From: Mycolicibacterium anyangense
GTDB lineage: Bacteria > Actinomycetota > Actinomycetes > Mycobacteriales > Mycobacteriaceae
Length of the DNA: 64,000 nt
Direction: 5' to 3'
NCBI RefSeq assembly: GCF_010731855.1
Contig: NZ_AP022620.1
Span: 434,001 to 498,000 of the forward strand
The translations under genes were made by a program, and so were the position numbers. Below are positions 2,564-64,000 of the stretch, piece after piece; position 1 is the stretch's first letter, and every line of letters begins with the position of its first letter. The notes beneath the pieces were generated by a model. It was not told where the DNA came from. It made no database searches and saw nothing but the letters and a program-made list of their open reading frames with translations.

Positions 2564-2569
2564 TTGCCC

Positions 2570-38258: not shown

Positions 38259-38392
38259 CCTCATCCCTCGAGTGACTTTGTGCCCCTCTTTCTTTGCGTG
38301 TGGCCCTAAACCCCAGCAACTGTTTTCGGGCTGAGCTAATGTCGGCCTGAGCTACACCGCGGGGGTGCGCTGGGGCTTTGGTCGGGGGGACC
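38259..38392 (+). promoter_or_regulatory. Promoter region of the large exported protein
   Basis: 134 bp. TAATGT at 38337-38342 is a -10 candidate (TANNNT) with no clear -35. A GGGGGGA-type ribosome site lies just before ATG 38393. A T/C-rich stretch at 38285-38295 follows the DUF2469 stop, without a hairpin. Confidence 0.35.
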
Positions 38393-46276: not shown

Positions 46277-46386
46277 GGTGATCCTTCCTCGTCGGGGCTC
46301 CTTGTCCCGCTCGACCCCAGTGATTTAACCTAGATTAGAAATATCGATTAGATTTGTCTACGAGCAACGGTGCGAGGGAGTCCAGG
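46277..46386. promoter_or_regulatory. AT-rich divergent promoter/operator region of the catabolic locus
   Basis: 110 bp separating the two transcription directions. Within 46327-46360 is an unusually AT-rich patch with GATTAGA repeated at 46333-46339 and 46346-46352 (13-bp step), TAGATT -10-like hexamers on the plus strand and TAATCT on the minus strand. It is likely a regulator site controlling both directions. Confidence 0.5.
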
Positions 46387-47133
46387 ATGGAAAAGCTGCT
46401 GCACGACAAGGTGGCAGTTGTCACCGGTGCCGCGCAGGGAATCGGTCTGGAAATCGCCCGAACCCTCCATCATCACGGCGCCCGGGTGGTGCTCGCCGAC
46501 CTCGACGAAGAAGCGACCGTACGGGCTGCCGAGCAGATCGGCGGCCCGGCGGGCGGATGCAGCGGCGCAGTCTGCAACGTGACCTCCGAAGAGCAGATGC
46601 AGGCGTTGGTGGCCGACACCGTCGACACCTACGGACGCCTCGACCTGTTCGTCAACAACGCCGGCATCACCCGGGATGCTTCGCTGAAGAAGATGCAGGT
46701 GTCCGATTTCGACGCCGTCATCACCGTGCACCTGCGGGGCACCTGGCTGGGTATCCGGGAAGCCAGTGCGGTCATGCGGGAACAGAAGTCCGGCAGCATC
46801 GTGAACATCTCCTCGCTGTCGGGTAAGGCGGGTAACCCCGGCCAGACCAACTACAGCGCGGCCAAGGCGGGCATCGTCGGACTCACCAAGGCCGCGGCGA
46901 AAGAGGTCGCCCACCACAACGTGCGCATCAATGCCGTGCAACCCGGCCTGATCCGCACCCCGATGACGGCAGCCATGCCGCCGGAGATCTTCGCCCAGCG
47001 CGAGGCCGACGTGCCGATGAAGCGGGCGGGTGAACCGAGCGAGGTCGCCGGTGCCGTGGTGTTCCTGGGCTCGGAGCTATCGAGCTACATCACCGGAACA
47101 GTCATCGAGGTTGGCGGCGGGAGGTACATGTGA
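46387..47133 (+). CDS. FabG-like short-chain dehydrogenase/reductase
   Basis: 248 aa SDR. The motif TGAAQGIG is near 14, NNAGITRD follows, and the catalytic Ser is in ISSLSG, with Tyr and Lys in YSAAKAG. PGLIRTPM and TGTVIEVGGG complete the family pattern. It most resembles 3-oxoacyl-ACP/CoA reductases. ATG 46387 with GAGGGAG upstream. It is first in a run of coupled catabolic genes (GTGA overlap with the next gene at 47130). A likely role is oxidation of a 3-hydroxyacyl-CoA or dihydrodiol. Confidence 0.88.
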   Translation: MEKLLHDKVAVVTGAAQGIGLEIARTLHHHGARVVLADLDEEATVRAAEQIGGPAGGCSGAVCNVTSEEQMQALVADTVDTYGRLDLFVNNAGITRDASLKKMQVSDFDAVITVHLRGTWLGIREASAVMREQKSGSIVNISSLSGKAGNPGQTNYSAAKAGIVGLTKAAAKEVAHHNVRINAVQPGLIRTPMTAAMPPEIFAQREADVPMKRAGEPSEVAGAVVFLGSELSSYITGTVIEVGGGRYM

Positions 47134-47900
47134 GTCCCGTCCTGACCGAGATCACGGGCGCGATCGGGCGGATCACGCTCAATCGTCCGGACAAGATGAA
47201 CGCCATCAGTGTCGATCTCGCCGAGGCGCTCGGCGCGGCGATCGATGAGCTGGGCCACCGCGACGACCTCAACGTCATCGTGATCCGCGGCGCGGCAGGC
47301 AACTTCTGCGCGGGCGGCGACTTCGACGAGGTGCAGCGGTTGCGAGCAGCCGGTCCGGATCAGCTGCGGATCCTGTTCACGGCGTTCAAGGCGGCCTGCG
47401 CCGCGGTCAGTCGTACCGACATCCCGGTCGTCGCCGCGGTGCAGGGCGTCGCCGCTGCCGGTGGCTTCGAACTGATGCAAGCCGTCGACATCGTCCTAGT
47501 GTCCGAGTCGGCACGCATCGCCGACAACCACATCAACTTCGGGATGATCCCCGGCGGCGGCAGTACCGCGCGGTTGCCCCGCATCGTCGGTCGCCAGCAG
47601 GCGCTGACCGTGCTGCTCTCCGGCGACAAGCTGCGCGGCCCGGACGCCCTGCGGCTGGGGCTGGCCCAACAGTGCTATCCCGGCGAGGAATTCGACGAGT
47701 CGGTGGAGGCCTTCCTGCAGCGGCTCGCCAGTCGCGACCGCTCCGCGGTGACCGCCATCAAGCGTCTGGTCAACACCGGACTCGACAACGACCTGCAGAC
47801 CGCCATCGACGACGAGACCGATGCCGTGGTCGCCCGGATCTGCGGCGACGCCGGTCAGGCCGGGGTGTCGGCATTCAAGAACAGAGAGGCCACCGCATGA
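47130..47900 (+). CDS. Enoyl-CoA hydratase/isomerase family protein 1
   Basis: 256 aa crotonase fold. The oxyanion-hole segments are NFCAGGDF (first) and QGVAAAGGFELM (second), and NFGMIPGGGSTARLPRIVG marks the active-site loop. The position of the classical second glutamate is a Gly in IPGGG, so it may be an isomerase, hydrolase or C-C lyase rather than a hydratase. GTG 47130 overlaps the SDR stop, and the stop overlaps the next ATG. First of three consecutive crotonases. Confidence 0.88.
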   Translation: MSPVLTEITGAIGRITLNRPDKMNAISVDLAEALGAAIDELGHRDDLNVIVIRGAAGNFCAGGDFDEVQRLRAAGPDQLRILFTAFKAACAAVSRTDIPVVAAVQGVAAAGGFELMQAVDIVLVSESARIADNHINFGMIPGGGSTARLPRIVGRQQALTVLLSGDKLRGPDALRLGLAQQCYPGEEFDESVEAFLQRLASRDRSAVTAIKRLVNTGLDNDLQTAIDDETDAVVARICGDAGQAGVSAFKNREATA

Positions 47901-48700
47901 CCGTGACCACCGAGCCTGCCGTATTGCGCGAGGTGGCGCCCAACGGCGTCGCCAGCATCCGGCTGAACCGCCCCGAGACCTCCAACGGGCTCAACGTCGA
48001 GACGCTCAAGGCGCTGCACGACGCCGTGCTGACCTGCCACGCCGACCCTGAGGTGAAGGTGGTCGTCCTGACCGGGGCGGGACGCAACTTCTGCGCCGGC
48101 GGCGACGTGAAGACCTTCGAGTCCAAGGGCGAGAAGCTCCCGGACTATCTGCGGGAAGCCACCGCATGGTTGCAGCTCGCGACGTCCGCACTCATCCAGT
48201 TGCGTGTCCCGGTCGTCACCGCGGTGCAGGGCTTCGCCGCCGGGGGCGGCGGGCTCGGCCTGGTCTGCGCATCCGACATCGTGGTCGCCGCGCAGTCGGC
48301 CAAGTTCTTCTCCGGCGCGGTCCGGGTCGGCATGGCGCCGGATGGCGGATCCTCGGTGACGCTGGCCCAATTGGTGGGCTTGCGCCAGGCGCTGCGGATC
48401 CTGCTGACCAACCCGACCATCACCGCCGACGAGGCGGTCGGCATCGGTCTGATCACCGAAGTCGTGGCCGATGAGGATCTGCAGACTCGCGTCCAGACAA
48501 TCGCCACCGAGCTGTCGGCGATGCCCACCCGCGCGTTGTCGGCGACCAAACGCCTGGTGTGGTCGGGGGTGGGCGCCTCCATCGAGGAACGGCTGCCCGA
48601 GGAGTCCCGCACCGTCTCGGAGCTCTCCGGAACCGAGGACGCCCTGGAAGGTCTGCGCGCGGTCATCGAGCGCCGCCCGGCGAAGTTCACCGGCCGATGA
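47897..48700 (+). CDS. Enoyl-CoA hydratase/isomerase family protein 2
   Basis: 267 aa crotonase. Motifs are NFCAGGDVKTF, QGFAAGGGGLGLVCA and RVGMAPDGGSSVTLAQLVG. The Asp of PDGG replaces the hydratase Glu, as in PaaG-like ring-forming/isomerising enzymes. ATG 47897 overlaps the previous stop (ATGA), and the end overlaps the next gene likewise. Consecutive but diverged from crotonases 1 and 3, so each probably does a different step. Confidence 0.88.
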   Translation: MTVTTEPAVLREVAPNGVASIRLNRPETSNGLNVETLKALHDAVLTCHADPEVKVVVLTGAGRNFCAGGDVKTFESKGEKLPDYLREATAWLQLATSALIQLRVPVVTAVQGFAAGGGGLGLVCASDIVVAAQSAKFFSGAVRVGMAPDGGSSVTLAQLVGLRQALRILLTNPTITADEAVGIGLITEVVADEDLQTRVQTIATELSAMPTRALSATKRLVWSGVGASIEERLPEESRTVSELSGTEDALEGLRAVIERRPAKFTGR

Positions 48701-49482
48701 ACGTCCTCATCGACGACGACGGCGCGGTCCGGACGATCACGCTCCATCGACCGCAGGTCCGCAACGCGATCGACATCCCGCTGCGGCTGGAATTGGCCGA
48801 TGCGCTCGAGGCGGCCGACGCCGACGACTCGGTGCGAGTCATCATTCTCACCGGCTCCGGGTCGACGTTCTGTTCCGGCGGTGACATCTCGACGATGCGG
48901 GTGATGGGCGAGACCGAGGCCATGGAACGCGCGCAGCTCGCGCAGCGGGTGATCCGGGCTATCTGGAATACCCCGAAGCCCGTCATCGCGGCGGTCGAGG
49001 GGGCCGCGTTCGGCGCCGGTGCGGCACTGGCGGCAGCCTGTGATCGGGTGATCGCGGGTCGTGATACCCGGTTTGCCACCACGTTCACCAATGTCGGGCT
49101 GGCCGGCGATATGGGCACCTTCGCCTCGCTTCCCCGCCGGGTGGGCGTGGCGCGGACTCGCCAGATGCTGCTGCTTCCCGAACCGTTCACCGCCGAGGCG
49201 GCCGAGCAGTGGGGCCTCGTCGATGCCACCACCGAACCGGGCGGTGCGCTTGCGGCGGCTCGCGCGGACGCGGCACGACTCGCTGCCGGGCCCGCCCAGG
49301 CCTACGCAACGATCAAGGCCTTGTTGGCACTGACGCCCACACTGCCCCCGCTCGAGGTTCTCGACATCGAGGCGGCCCATCAGGCAAAGCTTTTCGGCAG
49401 TAGCGACTTCGCTGAAGGTGTCGCTGCTTTCGCCGAGAAACGTCGACCGTCCTTTCGCACACGACAAGGAGTACGCGGATGA
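48697..49482 (+). CDS. Enoyl-CoA hydratase/isomerase family protein 3
   Basis: 261 aa crotonase. Motifs are TFCSGGDISTM, EGAAFGAGAALAAACD and NVGLAGDMGTFASLPRRVG, again with Asp (GDMG) in the active-site loop. ATG 48697 overlaps the stop of crotonase 2, and the stop overlaps the dioxygenase alpha start (ATGA, 49479-49482). The tight coupling to the dioxygenase implies that the CoA-ester steps and ring oxidation belong to one pathway. Confidence 0.88.
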   Translation: MNVLIDDDGAVRTITLHRPQVRNAIDIPLRLELADALEAADADDSVRVIILTGSGSTFCSGGDISTMRVMGETEAMERAQLAQRVIRAIWNTPKPVIAAVEGAAFGAGAALAAACDRVIAGRDTRFATTFTNVGLAGDMGTFASLPRRVGVARTRQMLLLPEPFTAEAAEQWGLVDATTEPGGALAAARADAARLAAGPAQAYATIKALLALTPTLPPLEVLDIEAAHQAKLFGSSDFAEGVAAFAEKRRPSFRTRQGVRG

Positions 49483-50747
49483 CCTCAGTCATCGATCCCT
49501 CAGCTGGCACCGGTAGCCGATTCGACCGGCTGATCCAGCCGAACAGGGTGCATGGCAGCCTCTACACCAGCTCCGACATCTTCGCCGAGGAACTGGAGAA
49601 GATCTGGTACCGCACCTGGGTGTTCGTCGGCCACGAGAGCGAGGTCGCCCACCCCAACGACTACGTGCGCAAGAAACTCGGTACCCAGGACGTCATCATG
49701 ACCCGCGACCGCGACGGCGAGTTGCATCTGCTGCTCAACCGGTGCGCCCACCGTGGCAGTCAGGTCTGCGACGACGCCAAGGGCAACTCGAGCACCTTCC
49801 GGTGCCCCTACCACGGCTGGACGTTCCGGAACACCGGCGACCTCGTCGGCTTCCCGTTCTTCAAGGGCTACGGTGAGCGCAAGCTCGACATGCCGATGGG
49901 TCGGGTGCCCCGGGTCGACACCTACGGTGGCTTCGTCTTCGGCAGCTTCGCCACCGATGGACCGTCCTTGGTGGAGCATCTCGGTGCCGCTGCCGGCGAG
50001 ATCGACCGGTTGACCCGGCTGTCGCCGGAGGGCAAGGTCGAGCTGACTGCCGGATGGTTGCAGCACAAGACGCGCGCCAACTGGAAACTGGTCGCCGAGA
50101 ACGAAACTGACGGCTACCACCCGCAATTCGTCCACGGCTCGATCTTCGGGGTCACCGGCAGCACCATCGCCCCGCTCTACAGCGACAGTTCCACCGCTGT
50201 GACCCGTGACCTCGGCAACGGCCACAGTGAGAACGACCTGCGTCCGGAGTTCCGCAAGTTCGCCCAGCCGATGCGCTGGTTCGGCACGACCGAATCCCGG
50301 GTGCCGGACTATGTGGCGGCGATGCGCGCCAAGCACGGTGCCGAGGCCGAGCAGATCCTCGTCGAGGGTGCTCCGCACGTGATGATCTTCCCCAATCTGT
50401 TCATCGCCGAGATCCAGGTGATCTGCTTCCAGCCCGTTGCCGCCGACGAGTGCACGCAGTACGCAACCGCCGTCCAGCTGGCCGGTGCCCCGGAACTCAA
50501 CCGGCGCATGGTGTCTCAGTGCATCGGTTCGGTCGGGCCGGCCGGGATGCTGCTCGCCGACGACACCGAGATGTACGAGCGCAATCAGGAAGGCATCGCG
50601 GCACGAAACCCGGAGTGGCTCGACGTGCGCCGGGGACTGAATCGGGAAACCGTCGATGACAACGGCTTCACGATCGGCACCAACACCGACGAGACCGGTA
50701 TGCGCGCCTTCTGGTCGCAGTACAAGTCGCTGATGGAAAAGGACTGA
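49479..50747 (+). CDS. Rieske ring-hydroxylating dioxygenase, alpha (catalytic) subunit
   Basis: 422 aa. The Rieske [2Fe-2S] motif is Cys89-X-His91 and Cys109-X2-His112 (CAHRGSQ ... CPYHGW). The mononuclear iron site has His214 and His219 in NETDGYHPQFVHG with the bridging Asp211. The length and motif spacing fit the benzoate/toluate and related alpha subunits. It adds O2 to an aromatic or hydroaromatic ring and needs electrons from a ferredoxin/reductase, which is not encoded in this window. The beta subunit follows four bases later. The substrate is unknown. Confidence 0.93.
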   Translation: MTSVIDPSAGTGSRFDRLIQPNRVHGSLYTSSDIFAEELEKIWYRTWVFVGHESEVAHPNDYVRKKLGTQDVIMTRDRDGELHLLLNRCAHRGSQVCDDAKGNSSTFRCPYHGWTFRNTGDLVGFPFFKGYGERKLDMPMGRVPRVDTYGGFVFGSFATDGPSLVEHLGAAAGEIDRLTRLSPEGKVELTAGWLQHKTRANWKLVAENETDGYHPQFVHGSIFGVTGSTIAPLYSDSSTAVTRDLGNGHSENDLRPEFRKFAQPMRWFGTTESRVPDYVAAMRAKHGAEAEQILVEGAPHVMIFPNLFIAEIQVICFQPVAADECTQYATAVQLAGAPELNRRMVSQCIGSVGPAGMLLADDTEMYERNQEGIAARNPEWLDVRRGLNRETVDDNGFTIGTNTDETGMRAFWSQYKSLMEKD

Positions 50748-50751
50748 GCAC

Positions 50752-51285
50752 GTGACAACCTCGATCAGCGAGTCCGCTGAATCCACTTGTATCCCAGCCG
50801 AGTTCGATCGCTTCGCCGTCGAGCAGTTCCTGTATCGGGAAGCGCGGCTGGCCGACGAGAACGACTACGACGCCTGGGAGGCGTTGTGGACCGACGATGC
50901 CCTGTACTGGGTACCCGCCGACGTCAAGGATTACGACCCGCTGCGTCAGATGTCGGTGATCTATGACAACCGCAGCCGCATCTCGACCCGGCTCAAGCAG
51001 GTCCTCACAGGTCGCCGTTACGCGCAGGCGCCGGCCTCGGTACTGCGCCGGCTCATCTCGAACATCGAATTCCTCGGTGCGCGGCCGAATTCCGAAGGTT
51101 CGGCGGACCTGGAAGTCGGGGCGAACTTCATCGCAGTCGAATCCCGAGCGCGGGGCAACCATGTGTGGGCCGGCCGGACCACCTATCGGTTGCGCCTTGT
51201 CGGCGGTGAGCTCCGACTGGCCTACAAGAAGGTGCAGCTCGTCGATGCGGACAAGGCGATCCCGTCGCTGAGTTTCCTGATCTGA
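50752..51285 (+). CDS. Ring-hydroxylating dioxygenase, beta subunit
   Basis: 177 aa NTF2-like cone fold, the structural subunit of alpha3beta3 oxygenases. VEQFLYREARLADENDYDAW and LWTDDALYWVPAD are the family start. Then DNRSRISTRLKQVLTGRRYAQ and VLRRLISNIEFLG give the classical pattern, ending LRLAYKKVQLVDAD. GTG 50752, directly after alpha, so expression in equal amounts is expected. No catalytic residues are expected in this subunit. Confidence 0.92.
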   Translation: MTTSISESAESTCIPAEFDRFAVEQFLYREARLADENDYDAWEALWTDDALYWVPADVKDYDPLRQMSVIYDNRSRISTRLKQVLTGRRYAQAPASVLRRLISNIEFLGARPNSEGSADLEVGANFIAVESRARGNHVWAGRTTYRLRLVGGELRLAYKKVQLVDADKAIPSLSFLI

Positions 51286-51292
51286 GGCGGTG

Positions 51293-51547
51293 ATGGGAAT
51301 CGAATTCGACGATTCGGCAGCGGCGGCCATCCCGGGTGTCGGAGCAGTGATCGGGAGCGAGTTCGCCGAGGTGGCGGTCAGTGTCGACACCGAGGCGAAT
51401 TCGCCGCGCCTGCGGGTCGAGGATCTGCGCACCGGCCGGGTGCGCTTCCTGGACGCCCTGGAGCTGGAGACCATCGTGTGGTTGTCCGAGGAGAAGCTGA
51501 CCGCGTTGCTCGATCCGTCGGCCGATCGTTGGCGGGGTGACCGATGA
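51293..51547 (+). CDS. 84-residue protein of unknown function in the dioxygenase operon
   Basis: 84 aa (GTG 51290 would add one residue). Acidic, without cysteine, signal peptide or membrane segment. The second half (LRVEDLRTGRVRFLDALELETIVWLSEEKLTALLD) looks like a small beta-hairpin plus helix. It is not a ferredoxin since it has no ligand residues. It lies between the dioxygenase beta subunit and the thiolase, with an ATGA overlap to the thiolase, so it is surely translated with the pathway. It may be an assembly or subunit-type accessory protein. I do not recognise a family. Confidence 0.7.
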   Translation: MGIEFDDSAAAAIPGVGAVIGSEFAEVAVSVDTEANSPRLRVEDLRTGRVRFLDALELETIVWLSEEKLTALLDPSADRWRGDR

Positions 51548-52752
51548 GGCGCGCAGCGATCGTGGCCCCGGTCCGGACCCCGGTCGGCACGTTCGGTGGC
51601 AGTCTGCGACCTTTACGCGCCGAGGATCTGGCCGCCCGGGTGCTCACCGCGCTGGTCGACCGCAGCGGGGTTGATCCCGAGGTCATCGAGGACGTCGTGA
51701 TGGCCCAGTCCTACTCCAACTCCGAGGCGCCGTGCATCGGGCGTTGGGCCGCGCTGCACGCTGGGCTTCCGATCACCGTGTCCGGCTTGCAGATCGACCG
51801 CCGCTGTGGCGGTGGACTGCAGGCGGTGATCACCGCGGCGATGACGGTGCAGACCGGCGCGGCCGATGTCGTCATTGCCGGTGGGGTGGAATCGATGAGC
51901 AACATCGAGCACTACACCACTACCGCACGGTGGGGGGCGCGGTCGGGGAACCAGATGCTCTACGACCGGTTGGACCGCGGCCGGCAGATGTCGCAACCGG
52001 TGTGGCGGTTCGGCGAGATCAGCGGAATGATCGAGACCGCCGAGAATCTGGCCGCCGACTACGGCATCGACCGGGCCGCCGCCGACGAATTCGCTGCCCG
52101 CAGCCACCGACTGGCCGCCGCCGCGCAGAGCGCGGGCCGGTTCGACGAGGAGATGATCGCCGTCGAGGTGCCGGTCCGGCGCGGCGATCCGGTGCAGGTC
52201 GGCAAGGACGAGGGCGTTCGCCCCGATACCACCGTGGAGAGCCTGGCACGCCTGCGCACCGTCCAGGCCGGCGGAACCGTGACGGCCGGTAACTCCAGCC
52301 AGCAGAATGACGCTGCCGCAGCATGTTTGGTGGTCGCCGAAGACCGCCTCGACGAGTTGGGCCTGGAACCGATCGGCTTCCTGGAGGGCTGGGCGGCGGT
52401 CGGCTGCGAGCCCTCCCGGATGGGGATCGGACCGGTGGGCGCGGTGCAGAAACTGTTCGCGCGCAACGGCCTGACGTTCGACCAGATGGATCTCATCGAG
52501 ATCAACGAGGCGTTCGCCGTCCAGGTCCTCGCGGTCCTCGCCGGCTGGGGTCTGACCATGGACGATGTCGAGGATCGGCTCAACGTCAACGGCTCGGGCA
52601 TCTCGCTCGGACATCCGATCGGGGCCACCGGTGTGCGCATCCTGGCCACGATGATGTACGAGTTGCGCCGGCGCGGTGGGGGATTGGCGCTCGAGACTAT
52701 GTGCATCGGCGGCGGACAAGGCATTGCCGCCGTGTTCAGGAGCGCGTCGTGA
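51544..52752 (+). CDS. Acetyl-CoA acetyltransferase (thiolase)
   Basis: 402 aa complete thiolase. The nucleophile Cys88 is in DRRCGGGLQA, and GGVESMSNIEHY follows. The base histidine is in GHPIGATG, and the second Cys is in MCIGGGQG. It cleaves a 3-oxoacyl-CoA to acetyl-CoA (or propionyl-CoA) and a shorter acyl-CoA. ATG 51544 and a GTGA stop overlap both neighbours. With the crotonases and SDR it supplies a full beta-oxidation set for the pathway. Confidence 0.94.
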   Translation: MRRAAIVAPVRTPVGTFGGSLRPLRAEDLAARVLTALVDRSGVDPEVIEDVVMAQSYSNSEAPCIGRWAALHAGLPITVSGLQIDRRCGGGLQAVITAAMTVQTGAADVVIAGGVESMSNIEHYTTTARWGARSGNQMLYDRLDRGRQMSQPVWRFGEISGMIETAENLAADYGIDRAAADEFAARSHRLAAAAQSAGRFDEEMIAVEVPVRRGDPVQVGKDEGVRPDTTVESLARLRTVQAGGTVTAGNSSQQNDAAAACLVVAEDRLDELGLEPIGFLEGWAAVGCEPSRMGIGPVGAVQKLFARNGLTFDQMDLIEINEAFAVQVLAVLAGWGLTMDDVEDRLNVNGSGISLGHPIGATGVRILATMMYELRRRGGGLALETMCIGGGQGIAAVFRSAS

Positions 52753-55296: not shown

Positions 55297-55375
55297 GCGG
55301 CAGGGATCGAGCCAATCGGTCCACCCACATAACAGTCCGATTCCCATCCGGGAAACGTGAAACAAAGGAGTAGCA
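55297..55375 (+). promoter_or_regulatory. Only sizeable gap within the main catabolic run
   Basis: 79 bp. It contains TTCCC-ATCC-GGGAA (55341-55354), a 5-bp-arm inverted repeat, and an AAAGGAG ribosome site before GTG 55376. It may hold an internal promoter or a processing hairpin. Confidence 0.3.
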
Positions 55376-56236: not shown

Positions 56237-56244
56237 GTATCCAG

Positions 56245-57870
56245 ATGGGCGCCGTGTCGGAAACTCCGACGTTGGTGACGGCCTCGCGGCCCGCGGATCG
56301 GTCGGTGCCGTTGGTCGACCATACCGTCGGAGAGCTGCTGGAGCTGCGGGCAGCTGATCACCCGCAGCGCGAGGCGGTGGTCGGGGTCCGGCACGGTTCC
56401 GGTGCCCTCGAGCGGTTGACCTATGCGCAGCTCGCCGAGGAGGCGGGCCGGGTGGCGGCGGCGCTGAGCGCGCTCGTGGAACCGGGTGAGCCGGTGGCGT
56501 TGTGGGCGCCGAACGTCCTGGAATGGACCGTCATCCAGTACGGGGCCGCGTTATCCGGCGTGCTGCTGGTGGCGCTCAACCCAGTGCTGCGCGATGACGA
56601 GCTCGACTATGCGCTGCGGCACAGCGGGGCCCGGCTGCTGTTGCATGCCGACGTCAGCCGCGACTACCCGATGGAGGAGGTGGCCGCGCAGGTCTGCGCA
56701 CAGATCCCTGGGGTCCGGCGGATCTCGTTGTCCGACAACGATCTCTGGATGTCGGCGGACTCCGTCTCCACTGGTCGCGCCCCGCACGATCCGGACGCTG
56801 CGGTCATGCTCCAGTACACGTCGGGCACAACCGGCCGGCCCAAGGGAGTGCTGCTGACGCACCGTGCTCTGGTCAATGTCGCCAAGCTCACGATGGAGGC
56901 CGGCGGGGTGGCGAACGGGGCGCGGTGTTTCAATCCGCTTCCGCTGTTCCACACCGCGGGGTGTGTGATCGGCACGCTCGGCCCGCTGTGGGTGGGCGGC
57001 ACGGCGATCCTGTGCGAGCGATTCGGCGCGCAGACGGCTCTGCAGACATTGCACGACGAGCAGGTGTCGGTTCTCTTCTATGTCCCGGCGATCCTGCATG
57101 CACTGGTGGGTCAGCAACGCGTATCCGCCCTCCCTGCAGCACGATTGAGCGTGATCATGGGTGGGGCCTCACCGGTCCCCGCCGAGCTGATCGAAGCGGC
57201 CGCGGACCTTTTCGGGGCGAACGTCCTCAACCTCTACGGCCAGACCGAACTCGCACCGGTGCTGACGGTGACCCGGCCGACCGACAGCCACGGCGACCGG
57301 CTGACCACGGTGGGCCAACCGCTACCGCAGGTGGAGTGCAAAGTGATCGATCCCGATACCGGCGACACCGTCGGCACCGGGGAGGTCGGTGAGATCTGCG
57401 CTCGCGGCTACCAGCAGTTCGTTCAGTATCTGCACGATCCGGCGGCCACCGCCGCGGCGCTGGATTCGGAAGGTTTCGTCCGCACCGGTGACCTGGGTGC
57501 GATGGACGAGCGTGGCTACCTCACCGTCACCGGCAGGCTCAAGGAACTCATCATCCGCGGCGGCGAGAACATCGCCCCCGCCGAAGTCGAATCGGTGATC
57601 GCCGAGCACGAGCAGGTGGTAGAGGCGACGGCGATCGGCCTGCCCGACGAGCGGCTGGGCGAGGTCGTCGGGCTGGTCTGCCGCGTCACCGGCAGCGAAC
57701 GGGATGCGCTGCGCCAGAGCCTCCTGGACCACGCGCGGAACCGGCTGCCGTCCTACAAGATCCCGGCGCGCTGGTTTGTCACCGAAGCGTTCCCGACGAC
57801 ACCCACGGGAAAGGTTCAGCGTTTCGCTCTGCGTGCCGCCGCTCTTGCCGACGAACTGGACGAGCTGTGA
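56245..57870 (+). CDS. Acyl-CoA synthetase (AMP-forming) 1
   Basis: 541 aa ANL-superfamily ligase: acid + ATP + CoA to acyl-CoA via acyl-AMP. The P-loop motif YTSGTTGRPKGVLLTH is near 192, with NLYGQTEL, the hinge-region RTGDLGAMDERGYLTVTGR and the C-terminal lysine motif PTTPTGKVQRF. ATG 56245 is used, and GTG 56254 is possible. The stop overlaps the second synthetase's GTG (57867). Two ligases in tandem suggest that both the entry substrate and a ring-cleaved intermediate need activation. Confidence 0.92.
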   Translation: MGAVSETPTLVTASRPADRSVPLVDHTVGELLELRAADHPQREAVVGVRHGSGALERLTYAQLAEEAGRVAAALSALVEPGEPVALWAPNVLEWTVIQYGAALSGVLLVALNPVLRDDELDYALRHSGARLLLHADVSRDYPMEEVAAQVCAQIPGVRRISLSDNDLWMSADSVSTGRAPHDPDAAVMLQYTSGTTGRPKGVLLTHRALVNVAKLTMEAGGVANGARCFNPLPLFHTAGCVIGTLGPLWVGGTAILCERFGAQTALQTLHDEQVSVLFYVPAILHALVGQQRVSALPAARLSVIMGGASPVPAELIEAAADLFGANVLNLYGQTELAPVLTVTRPTDSHGDRLTTVGQPLPQVECKVIDPDTGDTVGTGEVGEICARGYQQFVQYLHDPAATAAALDSEGFVRTGDLGAMDERGYLTVTGRLKELIIRGGENIAPAEVESVIAEHEQVVEATAIGLPDERLGEVVGLVCRVTGSERDALRQSLLDHARNRLPSYKIPARWFVTEAFPTTPTGKVQRFALRAAALADELDEL

Positions 57871-59576
57871 CGGCCTGTCCGTCGATCCCGCAGCGCCGCC
57901 AATCGTTGCGGGACAGGTTCGCCTCCTGGCAGCCGGTGAGCCTGGCCGACTGGCTGGATCGCTGCGCGGCGCAGTATCCGGACCGGCCGTTCGTCCTTGC
58001 CGACGCGGTGTCGTGGACCTACGCCCAGGTGCGCGATGAGTCGCGGCGGTTGGCCGCCGGCCTGGCGGCGCTCGGGGTGCGGCCCGGCGACCGGGTGGGG
58101 ATCTTGATGGCCAACTATCCGGAATTCGTCAGTATCAAGTTCGCGATCGCGCGGGCGGGCGCGATCGCGGTGCCGTTCAACTACCTCTATCGCGAGAGCG
58201 AATTGGCCTTTGTGCTGGCCGATTCCGGATGCCGGGTGCTGGTCACCATGACGGAATACGGCACGCTGGACTATCAGCAGATGCTCGACGGCATCGCGCC
58301 GGGATGGGACACCGCGGCCTTCGCCTATCGACCTGACGGCACGGACACCGTGCCGGGCCTTCGCGCGGTGGTGGTGCTCGACACCGGTGGTACGCCCCGC
58401 GACGGTGCGATGAACGTCGCGGATCTCGGTGCCATGGATGGACCGGGAATGATTGCTCCGCAGGTGAATCCGCTCGAAGCAGGTGACATTCTCTACACCT
58501 CCGGCACCACCGGTTCCCCCAAAGGTGTCGTGGTGTCACACGACGCGGTCTTGCGCACCGCCTATGCGTCGGCGCTGACCCGTGCCTACCAAGACGGTCG
58601 GCGAGTGCTGTATTCGCTGCCCTGCTACCACATGTTCGGCTACATCGAAGGCCTGCTGTCGGTGATGTTCGTCGGAGGCGCTGTAGTGCTGCAACCGACG
58701 TTCAGTGCCGAGGGCTACTTTCGCGGGATCCAGGAGCACGGTGCGACCGATCTCTTGTGCGTGCCGACGATGGCCGTCGCCATGGTGGAAAGTCCGGTAC
58801 GTGGGGACTACGACCTGAGTTCGCTGCAGGCGATCCTGTGTGGATCGGCTCCCGCGCCGATGTGGTTGTGGCAGAGGTTTGTTCGTGACTTCGGTGTCAC
58901 CGAGATCGTCACCGGTTACGGGATGACCGAGTGCGGCGGGGCGATGACCCTCACCCTGCCCGAGGATCCGCTGGAGGTGCTGACCGACACGGTGGGGCGC
59001 CCGAAGATCGCGGCGGCAGCCGGGGTCCCGGGTACCGATGCACTGGTGACCTACCGGGCAGTGGACCCGTCGACCGGCGCCGCCCTGCCGCCGGGTGCCG
59101 AGGGCGAACTGATTTCCAACGGTCCCACCACCATGCTGGGGTACTGGAACCGGCCGCCGGACACCGCGCTCGCCATTCGTGACGGCTGGCTACACTCCGG
59201 CGATCTGGGCCGCGTCCGCAGCGATGGCTACCTGCAGGTGACTGGTCGTAGCAAGGAGCTCTACAAGAGTGGCGGCGAGTTGGTGATGCCCAAGGAGATC
59301 GAGGATCTGCTGGTCGCGCATCCGGACATCAGTCAGGTCTTCGCCGTAGGTCTCACCGATGAGCGCTGGGGCGAGATCGGGTGCGTGGTGGTGGTCCCGG
59401 TCGCAGGTCGTCACATCACCGAGCGGGAGGTGCTCGACGTCTGCCGGCAGAATCTGGCCCGCTTCAAAGTACCCAAGCAGGTGGTGTTCCTCGCCGCCGA
59501 TGAGCTGCCCACAACACCGACCGGCAAGGTGCAGAAATTCCGGCTGGTACAGCAGCTCAGTGCGATGTCCGGTTAG
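57867..59576 (+). CDS. Acyl-CoA synthetase (AMP-forming) 2
   Basis: 569 aa ANL ligase. Motifs are YTSGTTGSPKGVVVSH near 211, TGYGMTECGGAM, SGDLGRVRSDGYLQVTGRSKELYKSGGE and the terminal PTTPTGKVQKF. It is only distantly similar to synthetase 1, so it is not a recent duplicate. GTG 57867 overlaps the previous stop. It is the last gene of the first run, and its TAG overlaps the stop of the opposing MBL hydrolase (59573-59576). Confidence 0.92.
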   Translation: MTACPSIPQRRQSLRDRFASWQPVSLADWLDRCAAQYPDRPFVLADAVSWTYAQVRDESRRLAAGLAALGVRPGDRVGILMANYPEFVSIKFAIARAGAIAVPFNYLYRESELAFVLADSGCRVLVTMTEYGTLDYQQMLDGIAPGWDTAAFAYRPDGTDTVPGLRAVVVLDTGGTPRDGAMNVADLGAMDGPGMIAPQVNPLEAGDILYTSGTTGSPKGVVVSHDAVLRTAYASALTRAYQDGRRVLYSLPCYHMFGYIEGLLSVMFVGGAVVLQPTFSAEGYFRGIQEHGATDLLCVPTMAVAMVESPVRGDYDLSSLQAILCGSAPAPMWLWQRFVRDFGVTEIVTGYGMTECGGAMTLTLPEDPLEVLTDTVGRPKIAAAAGVPGTDALVTYRAVDPSTGAALPPGAEGELISNGPTTMLGYWNRPPDTALAIRDGWLHSGDLGRVRSDGYLQVTGRSKELYKSGGELVMPKEIEDLLVAHPDISQVFAVGLTDERWGEIGCVVVVPVAGRHITEREVLDVCRQNLARFKVPKQVVFLAADELPTTPTGKVQKFRLVQQLSAMSG

Positions 59577-60601
59577 GCCACCCGATAGTGCCGGACACCG
59601 TCGACATCGGTACCGGCCACCAAACCCCGGAATTCAAGCAGGTCCAGATGTGCCTGAACCTCCAGCACCGCCATCATCCGGTGCACGGGGCCCAGTGCAC
59701 CGAGGTCCAGTTCTTCTCGTGTCCAACGCATCTCGGTGGCGACGTCAACGGAGCGTGAACGCCCGGCCGCGACCAGGTCGCCAACCACCTGCAGCCGGGT
59801 GCCATGGTGATCAAGCAGTTCCTCGGCCCGCTCGTGGGTGGTGCGATCGGTGGCCCCGTGTGCCGGCAGCATCCTGGCATCGGGCAAGTCCAGGACGAGC
59901 TGCAGGGAATCGAGGTAGGAGCGCAACGGCAACTGCTGCGGTGCCCGTTCGAACGCGAGCGACGGCGTGATCCGGGGCAGCAGGTGGTCGCCGGTGAAGA
60001 TCAGTCCGCGTGCCGAGTCCTCGAACACGACATGGCCCCTGGTATGGCCGGGGGTGGCGCGCACGGTAATCGTCGCGACCCCGCAGTCGATTTCATCTCC
60101 GTTGTCGAGCCAGCGATCCGGGAACGTGAACGGCACACCGAGCTCGTAGGGCTCCCAGTCGAGCGCGTCGATCTCGGCGGCGAGCTCATCAGCCCCGGCG
60201 CGCCGAAGCTGCGGCACCTGGGTCGGATGCACCTCGTGGGGAAGCCTGGCGAAGGACTCGATGCTGTGGCGCTCTTCGCGTCCGAGCATCAGCTCGATGC
60301 CGTACCGGTCCCGCCACCGCACCCCCAGTGAGTAGTGATCCCAATGCTGATGGGTCACGACAATCCGGTCGACGTCGCTGATGACGTATCCCAGCGAGTC
60401 GAGCGCCTGGGTCAGTGCGGTCTCAGCGGGTGGGAATGCCCAGCCCGGATCAACCAGGGTGACCCCGTCGGCAGGGGAGTGCAGGACGTAGGTGTTGACG
60501 GATCGGAGGTCCGGCAGGGGTAACGGCAGGGCTATGCACGCCACGTCGTCGGTGATGGTCTCCAGGCCGTTGGCGGCTGCCGTGACCGGTGTTCCTGACA
60601 T
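59573..60601 (-). CDS. Metallo-beta-lactamase-fold hydrolase
   Basis: 342 aa. The zinc motif HQHWDH lies in VVTHQHWDHYSLGVRW, followed by ATPGHTRGHVVFED and FTGDHLLPRITPSLAF, giving a complete MBL metal site, and a C-terminal helical domain (RTHERAEELLDHHGTR). It resembles thioesterase/glyoxalase-II-like MBL proteins. A thioesterase role releasing stalled acyl-CoA esters would fit the cluster but is inference. ATG 60601, divergent from the MaoC operon across a palindrome-bearing region. Confidence 0.87.
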   Translation of the reverse strand: MSGTPVTAAANGLETITDDVACIALPLPLPDLRSVNTYVLHSPADGVTLVDPGWAFPPAETALTQALDSLGYVISDVDRIVVTHQHWDHYSLGVRWRDRYGIELMLGREERHSIESFARLPHEVHPTQVPQLRRAGADELAAEIDALDWEPYELGVPFTFPDRWLDNGDEIDCGVATITVRATPGHTRGHVVFEDSARGLIFTGDHLLPRITPSLAFERAPQQLPLRSYLDSLQLVLDLPDARMLPAHGATDRTTHERAEELLDHHGTRLQVVGDLVAAGRSRSVDVATEMRWTREELDLGALGPVHRMMAVLEVQAHLDLLEFRGLVAGTDVDGVRHYRVA

Positions 60602-60802
60602 CCGGGAAGCCCTCCTGATCGTCGCGGAAGAAATTTAACACATACTAGAAAATGGTGTTATGGTGAGAGTGCATCCCTGATAGAGGCCCTTCATTGCGGT
60701 GAAGTGGCGATTCGAATAGGGATTAAACTGGTGTTGTGAGTGAGCGCGGTACTGCCGACGGCAGCGGGTCTCGACGTGTCGGAGAAAGGGATGGATCACG
60801 GT
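60602..60802. promoter_or_regulatory. Divergent promoter/operator region with TAACAC-N13-GTGTTA
   Basis: 201 bp. The palindrome arms TAACAC (60636-60641) and GTGTTA (60655-60660) lie 35 bp from the MBL start in an AT-rich patch, an arrangement typical of TetR-family operators. Further on are GGGATTAAACTGG (60718-60730) and a leader to ATG 60803 with AAAGGG. Apart from these nothing gene-like is seen. Confidence 0.5.
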
Positions 60803-61255
60803 ATGAAGGTGTTCGACAGCCTGGCGGAGTTCGAGGCTTCGGCGGGTACCGAACTGGGACCTACCGAGTGGCTCGAGGTCGACCAGAAGCGGGTCGATGT
60901 GTTCGCCGACGCGACGGATGACCATCAGTGGATTCACGTCGATCCCGAGCGCGCCGCTTCCGGGCCCTTCGGCGGGACGATCGCGCACGGTCTGCTGACC
61001 TTGTCGCTGCTGCCCCGCTTCATGCACCACCTCTACCGGGTGGACAACGTCACCATGGCGATCAACTACGGCTTCAACAAGGTCCGTTTCATCACCCCGG
61101 TTCCGGTCGGTGCCCGGCTGCGGGCATCCTCGCGGATCGCCCAGGTCGATGCGGTCGACGGCGGCGCACAGGCCACGATGGTGACGACCATCGAGGTGGA
61201 AGGTGCTGCCAAGCCCGCCGCCGTGATCGAATCCATCATCCGCTATGTCCGTTGA
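60803..61255 (+). CDS. MaoC-family (R)-enoyl-CoA hydratase
   Basis: 150 aa hot-dog fold hydratase. The catalytic hydratase-2 motif is present with Asp and His: FADATDDHQWIHVDPERA, followed by GPFGGTIAHGLLTLSLLP. It hydrates trans-2-enoyl-CoA to (R)-3-hydroxyacyl-CoA. ATG 60803 gives the typical MKVFDS start, and ATG 60791 would add four residues. The gene overlaps the next one by 11 bases. With the MFE-2-type SDR at 55376 it can supply a complete (R)-specific hydration-oxidation pair. Confidence 0.92.
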   Translation: MKVFDSLAEFEASAGTELGPTEWLEVDQKRVDVFADATDDHQWIHVDPERAASGPFGGTIAHGLLTLSLLPRFMHHLYRVDNVTMAINYGFNKVRFITPVPVGARLRASSRIAQVDAVDGGAQATMVTTIEVEGAAKPAAVIESIIRYVR

Positions 61256-62456
61256 GGTGAGTCGCGACGCCAAGGCCGCTGCGGCCCAGGCGCTTTACCA
61301 AGCGCTGGCCACCGGCGATGCCCACGCACTCGGTCAGCTCTTGGCGCCAGACTTCGTCGGCCACGCCGCCCAGGGGCTGCCGCTGGACATGGGTGGCACC
61401 CATGTCGGCGCCGAGGCCATGCGCGCCAATCTGTGGTGGCGCATCGGCGAGCACTTCAAGGCCCGTGCCGAAGCTGCCGATTTCCAGACCCTCGAGGACG
61501 GCCGGCTACTGGTCATCGGCACCTACCGCGGCACCGCGCGCCGATCCAAGGCGCAGCTCGACGCCGCATTCGTGCACATCCTGTCGTTCGACGACCAGGG
61601 GCGCATCGCCACCCTGACCCAACTCACCGACACCGCGGCGTGGCGCGCGGCCCTCGACGGCGACGAGCGGCTGCAGACCATCGACTATCGCGTCGAAGAC
61701 GGGTTGGCCACGGTCTGCCTCAACAGGCCCGACCACCGTAATGCCATCAATCTGCGGCTCGCCGAAGAGTTTCTCGACGTCGCGCGCCGCGTCGCCGCCG
61801 ATCCCACGGTGCGCGCGCTCCTCATCTGCGGGAACGGCCCCGCCCTCACCGTCGGCGGCGATATCGGCTACTTCCTCGACAACAAGGGGCAGGGCTACAG
61901 TGCCCTGTTCGAGAAGATGATCGCTCCCTATCACGAGACGTTCGACATCTTGAGTCGGCTTCACGTTCCGATCGTGACCGCGGCCCACGGCGCGGTGGCC
62001 GGCGGTGGACTGGGCTTCATCTATGCCGCCGACCTGGTGGTGGCTGCCGATGACGCGCGGTTCGTCACGGCTTTTGCCGCCATCGGACTCTCCGGTGACG
62101 GCGGGGGTACGTATCACCTGCCGCGGCTGATCGGTCCGCGACGTGCGGCACAGGCGTATCTGCGCAATACGCCGATCAGTGCCCAGGAGGCGCTCGACTG
62201 GGGTCTGGTCAACGAGATCGTTCCGGCCAGCGAAGTCCGCGATCGGGCAACGGCTCTGGCTCGCGAGCTTGCCCAGGGACCGACGGTGGCATACGGCACT
62301 ATGCGAAATCTCTTGCGGGAGAGTTGGAACAACGATCTGCCGCGGCAGCTCGAGGGCGAGCTCCGCGGAACGAAGACCACCGGGGACACCCGGGATGCAG
62401 CCAGCGCCATCGCCGCTTTCGCGGAACGGCACACAGCATCGTTCGAAGGAGCATGA
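61245..62456 (+). CDS. SnoaL-like domain fused to crotonase (PaaG-like) domain
   Basis: 403 aa. Residues about 1-135 form an NTF2/SnoaL-like cone (ALYQALATGDAHALGQLLAPDF start, AAFVHILSFDDQGRIATLTQ end), and 143-403 form a full crotonase domain (PALTVGGDI, HGAVAGGGLGF, IGLSGDGGGTYHLPRLIG). The active-site loop has Asp (GDGG) as in PaaG. There is no frameshift or internal stop at the junction, so it is a true fusion. Combination of a small ligand-binding/isomerase-type cone with a CoA isomerase suggests two consecutive steps on one substrate. It is unusual for either family. Confidence 0.85.
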   Translation: MSVEVSRDAKAAAAQALYQALATGDAHALGQLLAPDFVGHAAQGLPLDMGGTHVGAEAMRANLWWRIGEHFKARAEAADFQTLEDGRLLVIGTYRGTARRSKAQLDAAFVHILSFDDQGRIATLTQLTDTAAWRAALDGDERLQTIDYRVEDGLATVCLNRPDHRNAINLRLAEEFLDVARRVAADPTVRALLICGNGPALTVGGDIGYFLDNKGQGYSALFEKMIAPYHETFDILSRLHVPIVTAAHGAVAGGGLGFIYAADLVVAADDARFVTAFAAIGLSGDGGGTYHLPRLIGPRRAAQAYLRNTPISAQEALDWGLVNEIVPASEVRDRATALARELAQGPTVAYGTMRNLLRESWNNDLPRQLEGELRGTKTTGDTRDAASAIAAFAERHTASFEGA

Positions 62457-62457
62457 G

Positions 62458-63618
62458 ATGACCGGACTGATCACCGACAGTGACGAGCACCGCGCCATCC
62501 GGGAGAGCGTCGCCGGGATCGCCGAACGCTATGGGGCGCAATACTTCCTGAAGCGGGGCCGGGAAGGCCGGGACATCGAGGAACTGTGGAAGGACCTCGG
62601 CGCCTCCGGGCTGCTCGGTGTTCACCTTCCGGAGGAGTACGGCGGGGGCGGTGGCGGGATGGCCGAGGCCGTCGTGGTCGTCGAGGAATTGGCCGCCCAC
62701 GGCATGCCACTGCTGATCTGGGTCATCTCCCCGGCGATCTGTGGCTGCATCGTGGCCATGCACGGCTCGGAGGAGATGAAGCGACGCTGGCTGCCCGGCA
62801 TCGCCGACGGCAGCCAGAAGATGGCGTTCGGCCTCACCGAGCCGGACGCCGGCTCCAACAGCCATAACGTCAAGACCACGGCGCGCAAGACCGCCAACGG
62901 CTGGGTGATCTCGGGCTCGAAGTACTACATCTCGGCGATCGACCAGTGCGATGCCGTCTTGGTGGTGGCTCGTGACGCCGACCACTCGACCCCGGAGAAG
63001 TCCAAGCTCTCCCTGTTCGTCGTGCCGACGGATGCCAAGGGGCTGAGCTTCCAGCAGATCGACACCTCGATCGTGTCCCCGGACCGTCAGTTCACCGTCT
63101 TCCTCGACGAGGTCGAGGTGGGTGAGGACGCGTTGATCGGTCAGGCCGGCAACGGTCTGCGTCAGGTGTTCGACGGTCTGAATCCCGAGCGCATCCTGGT
63201 CGGCGCGCTGTGCGGTGGCATCGGCCGCTACGCCGTCGACAAGGCAGTGGCCTACGCCAAGGAGCGCAAGGTCTGGTCCACACCGATCGGTGCCCATCAG
63301 GGCGTCGCACACCCGGTCGCAGAAAGCCACATCGCCGTGGAGCTCAGCCGGCTGGCCACTGCACTCAGCGCCCAGCAGTTCGATGCCGGCCAGCCCGCCG
63401 GTGAAGCGGCCAACATCGCCAAATTCGCGGCCTCCGACGCCGCCCTGAAGGCGCTCGATCAGGCGATCCAGACCCACGGCGGCAACGGACTGGCCCACGA
63501 GTACGGGCTGTCCGAGCTCTGGTTCGTCACCCGCCTGATGCGCACCGCCCCGGTAAGCCGGGAGATGGTGCTCAACTTCGTCGCGCAGACCTCGCTGGGT
63601 CTGCCGCGTTCCTACTGA
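62458..63618 (+). CDS. Acyl-CoA dehydrogenase
   Basis: 386 aa FAD enzyme making a 2-enoyl-CoA. Motifs are HLPEEYGGGGGGMAEAVVVVEEL, AFGLTEPDAGSNS, ISGSKYYISA, FDGLNPERI and the C-terminal THGGNGLAHEYGL, whose Glu is a candidate catalytic base. Its length is typical. ATG 62458 has GAAGGAGC upstream and lies one base after the fusion gene stop. It supplies the first step of beta-oxidation for the cluster, with electrons passing to ETF (not encoded here). Confidence 0.93.
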   Translation: MTGLITDSDEHRAIRESVAGIAERYGAQYFLKRGREGRDIEELWKDLGASGLLGVHLPEEYGGGGGGMAEAVVVVEELAAHGMPLLIWVISPAICGCIVAMHGSEEMKRRWLPGIADGSQKMAFGLTEPDAGSNSHNVKTTARKTANGWVISGSKYYISAIDQCDAVLVVARDADHSTPEKSKLSLFVVPTDAKGLSFQQIDTSIVSPDRQFTVFLDEVEVGEDALIGQAGNGLRQVFDGLNPERILVGALCGGIGRYAVDKAVAYAKERKVWSTPIGAHQGVAHPVAESHIAVELSRLATALSAQQFDAGQPAGEAANIAKFAASDAALKALDQAIQTHGGNGLAHEYGLSELWFVTRLMRTAPVSREMVLNFVAQTSLGLPRSY

Positions 63619-63641
63619 CCCTGCACCCGAGGAGTACGACA

Positions 63642-64000
63642 ATGACGTCACACGACAACAACTTCGACGCCGTGGTGATCGGTGCCGGAGCCGGCGGTCT
63701 GTTTGCCGCGGCCCGACTGACCAAGCAGGGCTACCGCACCCTGGTCGTCGAACGATTGGACAAGGTTGGCGGCCGCGCCTCGACCGACGATATCGACGGG
63801 TTCAAGGTGAACGTCGGTGCGATCGTCATCGAGGTCGGCGGTATCACCCAGGAGACGTGCGAGGAGGTGGGAGCGCGGTTCGACATCCGGGAGCCCAAAC
63901 CTCCGATCCTGTACCGCATCGGCGGAAAGGACGTCGACGTCACCGGCGGTGGCTGGGGCATGTTGCTCAGCAAGCTCACCCGTCAGGGGGCCAAGCTGGT
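63642..64000 (+). CDS. FAD/NAD(P)-dependent oxidoreductase, phytoene-dehydrogenase-like (cut by window edge)
   Basis: The first 119 codons are visible. An N-terminal dinucleotide-binding fold has VVIGAGAGGLFAAARL, then the ADP-ribose acid in VVERLDKVGGRAST, the amine-oxidase/phytoene-desaturase pattern. ATG 63642 follows a GAGGAG ribosome site 23 bp after the acyl-CoA dehydrogenase stop, so it is part of the same operon. It may desaturate or saturate a ring or polyene intermediate. The rest lies beyond the window. Confidence 0.85.
   Translation, partial: MTSHDNNFDAVVIGAGAGGLFAAARLTKQGYRTLVVERLDKVGGRASTDDIDGFKVNVGAIVIEVGGITQETCEEVGARFDIREPKPPILYRIGGKDVDVTGGGWGMLLSKLTRQGAKL

Follow-up and report, generated by a model that had tools for sequence, protein, structure and literature searches.

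The window examined here is a 64,000-nucleotide stretch of Mycolicibacterium anyangense (bases 434001-498000 of the 5.70-Mb single-contig genome; assembly GCF_010731855.1, contig NZ_AP022620.1), and its end carries a gene cluster with a two-subunit Rieske oxygenase. With slightly more confidence than doubt, this cluster is read as a coenzyme A (CoA)-dependent operon that breaks down a ring-bearing carboxylic acid and in which the role of a ring-cleavage dioxygenase falls to crotonases and a thiolase complex. The locus is one conserved, patchily distributed evolutionary unit. The original prediction of an uncharacterised CoA-ester catabolic locus that exceeds the needs of simple beta-oxidation is supported. 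A ring-bearing acid, as it proposed, is a plausible substrate, and we agree that the compound cannot be named.

Ring-cleavage dioxygenases were sought with three LigB-type queries (one of them partial) and four BphC-type queries. The comparison loci (L039-L118) were the best 80 of 162 relatives of the Rieske alpha subunit in named records, taken with flanks of at most 10 kb. The queries matched in one of the 80 loci (L115), where the match is a BphC relative. They gave no match in the window from position 43001, in L008 (the sequence that contains the region beyond the window end), or in L131 and L120-L123. Two profiles, for the LigB and BphC groups, were run over 7840 open reading frames (ORFs) from 89 sources and again matched only L115 among the 80 loci. 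As a control, BphC queries from this genome recover the BphC of the ipf cluster of an ibuprofen plasmid (L119) at 35-43%. The intradiol family PF00775 has no match in this genome.

The genes of the cluster are listed below. Identities come from Pfam and NCBIfam profile scans, with the best 25 NCBIfam models considered for each protein.

45479..46276, minus strand: SDRa, a short-chain dehydrogenase/reductase (SDR) family dehydrogenase, divergent from the main operon (Pfam adh_short_C2)
46387..47133, plus strand: SDRb, a FabG-like 3-oxoacyl reductase (NF004198, 349 bits, cut-off 296)
47130..47900, plus strand: ECH1, a crotonase with the first catalytic Glu kept and His as the second (Pfam ECH_1)
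47897..48700, plus strand: ECH2, a crotonase of the Asp-loop (PDGG) type (Pfam ECH_1; D149)
48697..49482, plus strand: ECH3, a crotonase of the Asp-loop (GDMG) type (oxepin-CoA hydrolase, alternative type model, 204 bits, below the cut-off of 300; D138)
49479..50747, plus strand: Rieske dioxygenase alpha subunit (Pfam Rieske and Ring_hydroxyl_A)
50752..51285, plus strand: Rieske dioxygenase beta subunit (Pfam Ring_hydroxyl_B)
51293..51547, plus strand: unannotated 84-amino-acid (84-aa) protein, a putative PhtU-related Rieske companion (tblastn conservation, codon-position bias)
51544..52752, plus strand: THL1, an acetyl-CoA C-acyltransferase (PRK06205, 651 bits, cut-off 551)
52749..54104, plus strand: HMGS-DUF35, a hydroxymethylglutaryl (HMG)-CoA-synthase-like protein fused to a zinc-ribbon/OB DUF35 domain (6esq_I over residues 3-276, 6esq_E over 333-445)
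54094..55296, plus strand: THL2, an SCP2-type thiolase (PRK06157, 613 bits, cut-off 403; nearest solved chain 6esq_A)
55376..56236, plus strand: SDRc, an SDR that we take to be MFE-2-like (Pfam adh_short)
56245..57870, plus strand: LIG1, an acyl/aryl-CoA ligase (Pfam AMP-binding)
57867..59576, plus strand: LIG2, an acyl/aryl-CoA ligase (Pfam AMP-binding)
59573..60601, minus strand: MBL-fold hydrolase (Pfam Lactamase_B)
60740..61255, plus strand: MaoC-like hydratase (Pfam MaoC_dehydratas)
61245..62456, plus strand: ECH4, a SnoaL domain fused to an Asp-loop crotonase (Pfam SnoaL_2 and ECH_1)
62458..63618, plus strand: ACAD1, an acyl-CoA dehydrogenase (Pfam Acyl-CoA_dh in a scan from 62446; ATG at 62458 by sequence)
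63642..64000, plus strand: CrtI-like FAD oxidoreductase, cut by the window end and complete at 440 aa in L008 (Pfam scan and downstream sequence)

All the gene types named in the original prediction are present in these scans. Among the NCBIfam models considered, cut-offs are exceeded only by SDRb (FabG and two generic models), THL1 (PRK06205 and TIGR01930) and THL2 (PRK06157). The four crotonases comprise the consecutive ECH1-ECH3 and the SnoaL-fused ECH4. The near-continuous run of overlapping or touching genes reported for 46387-55296 is borne out by the measured junctions, which from SDRb through THL2 are -4, -4, -4, -4, +4, 258, -4 and -11 bp. Its sole large gap (51286-51543, 258 bp) is the 84-aa gene, which begins 7 bp downstream of the beta stop codon and runs 4 bp into THL1. 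The earlier inventory thus had the gene types right and overlooked this conserved gene. After THL2, the junctions are 79 bp to SDRc, 8 bp to LIG1 and -4 bp to LIG2.

The cluster continues beyond position 64000 with the FAD oxidoreductase, an HpcH/CitE-like lyase, a probable membrane protein, SCP2 and a FadD4-like ligase. Further on are an SDR, an aldehyde dehydrogenase, a ferredoxin-reductase fusion (~7 kb past the window end) and a P450 (~9 kb). An acyl-CoA dehydrogenase and a thiolase lie on the opposite strand.

Neighbours of the Rieske genes were counted in the 80 loci at 50% identity or more. The beta subunit is present in all 80, followed by ECH2 (65), THL2 (57), HMGS-DUF35 (56), THL1 (51), ECH3 (50), SDRa (47), LIG2 (46) and ECH1 (44). 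LIG1 (38), SDRc (36), SDRb (30), ACAD1 (21), the FAD oxidoreductase (19), MBL (18), MaoC (16) and SnoaL-ECH4 (11) are found less often. SDRa is part of the unit because its homologs lie near the Rieske genes in those 47 loci. SDRb is absent from the accepted matches in L039, the closest relative locus. Among 148 Mycobacterium genomes, the alpha ortholog (E <=1e-150) occurs in 17 and THL2 (E <=1e-150) in 20. Fifteen of the 20 have a THL2 copy of at least 80% identity, and all 15 fall within the 17 alpha-positive genomes; the other five have copies of 59-67% and no alpha ortholog. This co-occurrence (15/2/0/131) gives a Fisher p of ~1e-18, not corrected for shared ancestry. Chance grouping is excluded, because gene order is conserved in the 80 loci and the genes co-occur across the 148 genomes.

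The counts also bear on whether the region is a single system. Two independent operons could adjoin here, a Rieske operon at 45479-59576 and a second block from 59573 onward (MBL, MaoC, SnoaL-crotonase, ACAD, FAD). Some mycobacterial loci, such as L044, L064 and L066, fit this arrangement, as no second-block gene follows THL2 within their flanks; in L064 and L066 an MBL homolog is found on the opposite flank. Against it, Streptomyces, Amycolatopsis, Nocardioides and Pseudonocardia loci have homologs of SnoaL-ECH4, ACAD1, the FAD oxidoreductase, MaoC and MBL next to the Rieske genes in different arrangements, which leaves the division into two operons quite improbable.

Copies of the alpha gene at 68-81% identity are carried by NZ_CP076857.1 and by Rhodococcus and Pseudonocardia plasmids. 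The plasmid copies also include one M. avium record. These plasmid-borne copies suggest that the cluster is mobile.

The intergenic region between the divergent SDRa and SDRb genes contains a 19-bp element, TTTAACCTAGATTAGAAAT, at 46324-46342. The element is supported by an alignment of 21 intergenic regions, that of the window included, and is a putative promoter or operator. The form TTTAACYTRGATTAGAAAT occurs once each in 22 of the 80 loci, all of them mycobacterial. Of the 148 genus genomes, 9 contain it, and each of these belongs to the 17 that have the alpha gene. A whole-genome search for further copies, as of a possible regulon, found only this one copy at up to 3 mismatches.

In the proposed pathway, LIG1 and LIG2 would activate the acid as a CoA thioester. 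The Rieske oxygenase (alpha and beta, probably joined by the 84-aa PhtU-like protein) would then oxidise the ring of the CoA ester. Its reduction may depend on the ferredoxin-reductase fusion past the window end; FdR-like genes adjoin the Rieske genes in L107, L108, L110, L117 and L118 (41-48% identity). SDRs and the Asp-loop crotonases would dehydrogenate, isomerise or hydrolyse the ring, and MaoC, SDRc and ACAD would carry out beta-oxidation. The thiolase/pseudo-HMGS-DUF35 complex would make the thiolytic carbon-carbon cut on a bulky 3-oxoacyl-CoA, with THL1 acting on simpler chains. Asp-loop crotonases together with MaoC/MFE-2-type enzymes may indicate two separate chain or ring stages, as was first suggested.

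The aerobic hybrid pathways for phenylacetate (paa) and benzoyl-CoA (box) activate their substrates with CoA before oxygenation, end in lower beta-oxidation and use no ring-cleavage dioxygenase. The window would share these features. It also shares crotonases that score on the oxepin-CoA hydrolase and PaaG models, on which no crotonase reaches the cut-off; ECH3 is best on both, with the 204 bits above and 175 of 345 bits for PaaG. The window differs in having a Rieske oxygenase in place of the diiron epoxidase. The PaaA/PaaC epoxidase family (PF05138) has no match in this genome, and 4 of 14 control genomes were positive.

The alpha subunit appears to be intact in its [2Fe-2S] and iron ligands. 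In 81 of 81 sequences, the residues that we take to be the four [2Fe-2S] ligands, the two iron His, the bridging Asp and an Asp pair are conserved. The best solved chains are 9o71 and 7yls (191-192 bits). The closest characterised Rieske oxygenase found is IpfA, encoded on the ibuprofen plasmid pIBU218 and 43% identical to alpha; the beta subunit is 41% identical to IpfB. Several other plasmid relatives of alpha, at 41-60%, carry no described function in their records. IpfA is described as acting on CoA-bound ibuprofen (PMC11347016). The IpfA, IpfB and IpfF accessions match those in that paper, and the IpfD and IpfE labels were assigned from gene order.

The ipf cluster (Rhizorhabdus wittichii pIBU218, NZ_CP059320) shares with the window a two-subunit Rieske oxygenase, a CoA ligase, a thiolase-fold protein and an OB-fold (DUF35-like) partner. 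It differs in having an IpfD without thiolase residues and in carrying bphC and meta-cleavage genes. The window has instead a pseudo-HMGS fusion, four crotonases and no detected ring-cleavage gene. IpfD and its R. rhodochrous relative have no nucleophilic Cys, show YDAF and YDPF (YDxF) where THL2 has HDCF, and have no His aligned to the GHP His of THL2. Judged on sequence, the window cluster is not an ipf pathway: THL2 keeps its thiolase residues, and no LigB- or BphC-type ring-cleavage gene was detected nearby.

An ipf-like route would dihydroxylate an aryl-alkanoyl-CoA at the ring carbon bearing the side chain, remove the side chain, and leave the catechol to an unlinked extradiol enzyme. 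The relatedness of alpha to IpfA fits this route, as do three BphC-type and three LigB-type matches elsewhere in this genome and weak similarity to the 84-aa gene in the ipf-like loci L123 and L130. Patulibacter medicamentivorans, reported as an ibuprofen degrader in PMC11347016, carries a 63% relative (L109). Apart from the THL2 active site and the single ring-cleavage match among the 80 loci, a second cluster in the same genome speaks against it. This ipf-like cluster at 2.598-2.618 Mb (L130, 2598000-2617900) encodes Rieske alpha and beta subunits (42% for alpha), two IpfD-like proteins, ligases and a LigB extradiol enzyme. The window cluster is therefore a separate system, and an ipf-like route for it is unlikely.

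The thiolase and its DUF35-fused partner support the preferred reading, in which carbon-carbon cleavage would be thiolytic. THL2 has C86, H291, D292, C293 and H341 in 58 of 58 sequences (the Cys, HDCF and GHP motifs), and its nearest solved chain belongs to an archaeal acetoacetyl-CoA thiolase. The HDCF motif is that of SCP-2 thiolases, YDCF that of SLP, and YDHF and YDCY those of the two aldolases Ltp2 and Sal, according to PMC12329534. In the HMGS-like partner, the catalytic Cys, His and Glu are found at the equivalent positions in 0 of 58 sequences, of which one has a gap at the Cys column and one at the Glu column. The four zinc-ribbon Cys of its DUF35 domain are kept in 58 of 58. The "thiolase-like DUF35 fusion" of the original prediction is thus present as a fusion, and is better read as an HMG-CoA-synthase homolog lacking its catalytic residues and joined to a zinc-ribbon/OB domain, the whole resembling PhlA/PhlB of PhlACB.

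The archaeal thiolase/HMGCS/DUF35 complex (6ESQ) and the acyltransferase PhlACB (5M3K) likewise combine a thiolase-fold subunit bearing a nucleophilic Cys, an HMGS-fold partner and DUF35. The window differs in the fusion of DUF35 to the HMGS-like part and in its catabolic context. The HMGS-like part has lost Glu, Cys and His; PhlA likewise lost Cys and Glu, and archaeal HMGCS did not. According to PMC6392133, PhlA lacks Cys and Glu and acyl transfer uses PhlC residues only. The window thus retains the thiolase residues and the DUF35 zinc ribbon of this complex family and lacks a competent HMGS. Since the thiolase residues are intact and the HMGS residues lost, the pair resembles a thiolase-type enzyme whose partner, with HMGS-like and DUF35 parts in a single chain, would be a non-catalytic scaffold. 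THL2 and HMGS-DUF35 would form a physical complex.

The 84-aa gene was found by tblastn in 76 of the 80 loci, just after the beta gene in most (L094 is an exception by position). It also occurs in L121, annotated as "hypothetical protein". Across 58 gapless pairs, differences number 1038, 700 and 1976 at codon positions 1, 2 and 3, and the ORF is taken as coding because substitutions concentrate at the third position. A protein search gave 1148 homologs; the named ones among the 120 listed are nearly all "hypothetical protein", with a few UniRef entries called "dihydrodiol dehydrogenase". Neither Pfam nor the PDB gave a match at E <=1, and the best NCBIfam match had an E of only 0.16. Of the 148 genus genomes, the 17 alpha-positive ones and no others have strong matches (E ~1e-28 or below); with weak matches counted, the number is 65. 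Twelve weak matches are in genomes that the Rieske alpha matches listed also cover. Of these, 11 are at most 2.2 kb away from such an alpha match, against ~0.05 expected if placement were uniform; only G031 departs from this.

Further homologs of the 84-aa protein that were examined fall beside IpfD-like genes (L175, L178) or between a beta gene or region and an SDR (L173, L174, L176, L177). The alpha subunit of L176 matches phthalate 3,4-dioxygenase (9jp5) at 847 bits. The genome of Mycobacterium sp. MBM (L042; 6.7 Mb) has two further members directly after Rieske alpha/beta genes or regions. According to PMC10134610, phtU of strain MBM is a gene of unknown function downstream of phtAb, with a role still to be defined. 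The 84-aa protein aligns with pht-operon proteins at E ~1e-7 to 4e-8 (L176 at 6e-8, L183 at 7e-8). PhtU of mycobacterial phthalate operons shares with it the position directly after the Rieske beta gene and an EF(A/S/T)-V, RL, LE pattern. Identity is 33-43% over the core, the C-terminal part is different, and the cognate oxygenase in L176 is phthalate 3,4-dioxygenase. The PhtU name is assigned by position and strain. We place the 84-aa protein in a PhtU-related family found alongside actinobacterial Rieske dioxygenases.

The crotonases are conserved at their active sites. ECH1 has E114 and H134 in 56 of 56 sequences, the window included, positions which we take to be equivalent to Glu144 and Glu164 of crotonase. 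The Asp loop is kept in ECH2 (66 of 66), ECH3 (50 of 50) and ECH4 (24 of 24). The SnoaL-crotonase fusion is kept in 20 of 23 other loci, where the match begins no later than residue 30. In the divergent loci L110 and L116-L118, the Rieske genes are accompanied by ECH1, ECH2 and SDR homologs. The L110 and L117 ligases score 274 and 279 bits on the PaaK model (cut-off 700), and L116 and L118 have ORFs whose start is similar to this PaaK-like ligase. Scanned for a clue to the substrate, divergent loci showed genes of general kinds, among them transporters, hydrolases, a class II aldolase, a 3HCDH domain, and FadD-type and PaaK-like ligases. The ECH3 oxepin score and the PaaK-like ligases beside Rieske genes point to aryl-CoA chemistry without proving it. 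The best solved chains for LIG2 are 8weu and 8wev, named fatty-acyl-CoA synthase and feruloyl-CoA synthetase.

A terpenoid or alicyclic acid is the other class of substrate to weigh. Here enzymes encoded just beyond the window end (a CYP268-like P450, a ligase, and alcohol and aldehyde dehydrogenases) would oxidise a methyl group of an isoprenoid-like compound, and the Rieske enzyme would be a monooxygenase on a non-aromatic ring. The P450 (L008:9233-10510, plus strand) best matches CYP268A2 (6bld, 446 bits), whose substrate class is presumed here, and then CYP125- and CYP124-named chains. Five of the 80 loci (L057, L065, L092, L093, L111) have a P450 homolog of at least 50% identity close to the Rieske genes. 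These five are from mycobacteria, Pseudonocardia and a Chloroflexi metagenome-assembled genome, some with aldehyde dehydrogenase, SCP2 or LIG3 homologs. The CrtI-like FAD enzyme, found in 19 loci, is also in keeping with it. The PaaK-like ligases of L110 and L117 point instead to aryl acids. The other 75 loci have no such P450, which has little weight, as the P450 here is ~22 kb from the Rieske gene and beyond the 10-kb flanks. A terpenoid route is thus possible, though rather unlikely.

Known loci were also compared. The profile comparison proposed at the outset was run on NCBIfam, where the models scored include those for cyclohexanecarboxylate, benzoate, anthranilate, phenylpropionate and steroid enzymes. 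Cholate/steroid, cyclohexanecarboxylate, benzoate, anthranilate and phenylpropionate loci were rejected on scores far below cut-offs, e.g., 186 of 781 bits for BenA, 160 of 830 for HcaE and 267 of 792 for cyclohexanecarboxylate-CoA ligase. The comparisons, which did not take in diterpene loci directly, revealed no orthologous cluster whose substrate is established. The iad auxin operon was considered since 7yls (also 8h2t), which we take to be IadDE, is the second PDB chain for alpha. It was set aside: in the main text of PMC10374108, a PLoS Biol paper on that operon, the terms thiolase, enoyl-CoA and CoA ligase do not occur, and PMC12633357, in its abstract and outline, mentions no CoA steps. 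A term search of PMC11117675, on Gordonia polyisoprenivorans 135, found no mention of enoyl-CoA hydratase, acyl-CoA or OB-fold. In the open-licence literature, as far as its text was accessible, no paper was recognised as describing this cluster.

Elsewhere in the window, 38378-41785 on the plus strand encodes a protein of 1135 aa that contains Big_9 and beta-helix domains. No significant similarity links it to an ORF of equal length at 2564-5971.

Several points weigh against a CoA-dependent operon that dispenses with ring-cleavage dioxygenases. The LigB queries matched only their own source, L130, so the sensitivity of that arm is not demonstrated, and the ipf-like locus L123 also gave no match with the LigB and BphC queries. 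Twenty of the 80 loci span less than 20 kb, cupin types lie outside the test, and intradiol enzymes were checked in this genome only. The LigB- and BphC-type enzymes encoded elsewhere in the genome could act in trans. Rieske action on a CoA ester is proposed by analogy to IpfA, at 43% identity, and the substrate class and enzyme activities of the pathway are predicted. The 84-aa gene was not found by tblastn in L111-L114 or in the proteobacterial relatives L120 and L122.

A bolder form of the same proposal, held only tentatively and on balance doubtful, is a third aerobic CoA route for aromatic acids. The Rieske oxygenase would dearomatise an aryl-CoA, and the Asp-loop crotonases and the thiolase/pseudo-HMGS-DUF35 pair would open and cut the ring without a ring-cleavage dioxygenase. 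The oxygenase would have three components, with a PhtU-family part common to many actinobacterial Rieske dioxygenases, phthalate dioxygenase included.

If the proposed pathway is correct, a Rieske-based version would be added to the short list of oxygen-dependent CoA pathways. The conserved actinobacterial pseudo-HMGS-DUF35/thiolase pair would gain a functional setting. PhtU, an old orphan of undefined role, would become a testable component of actinobacterial Rieske oxygenases. More speculatively, a missing PhtU-like component might explain poor activity in heterologous expression.

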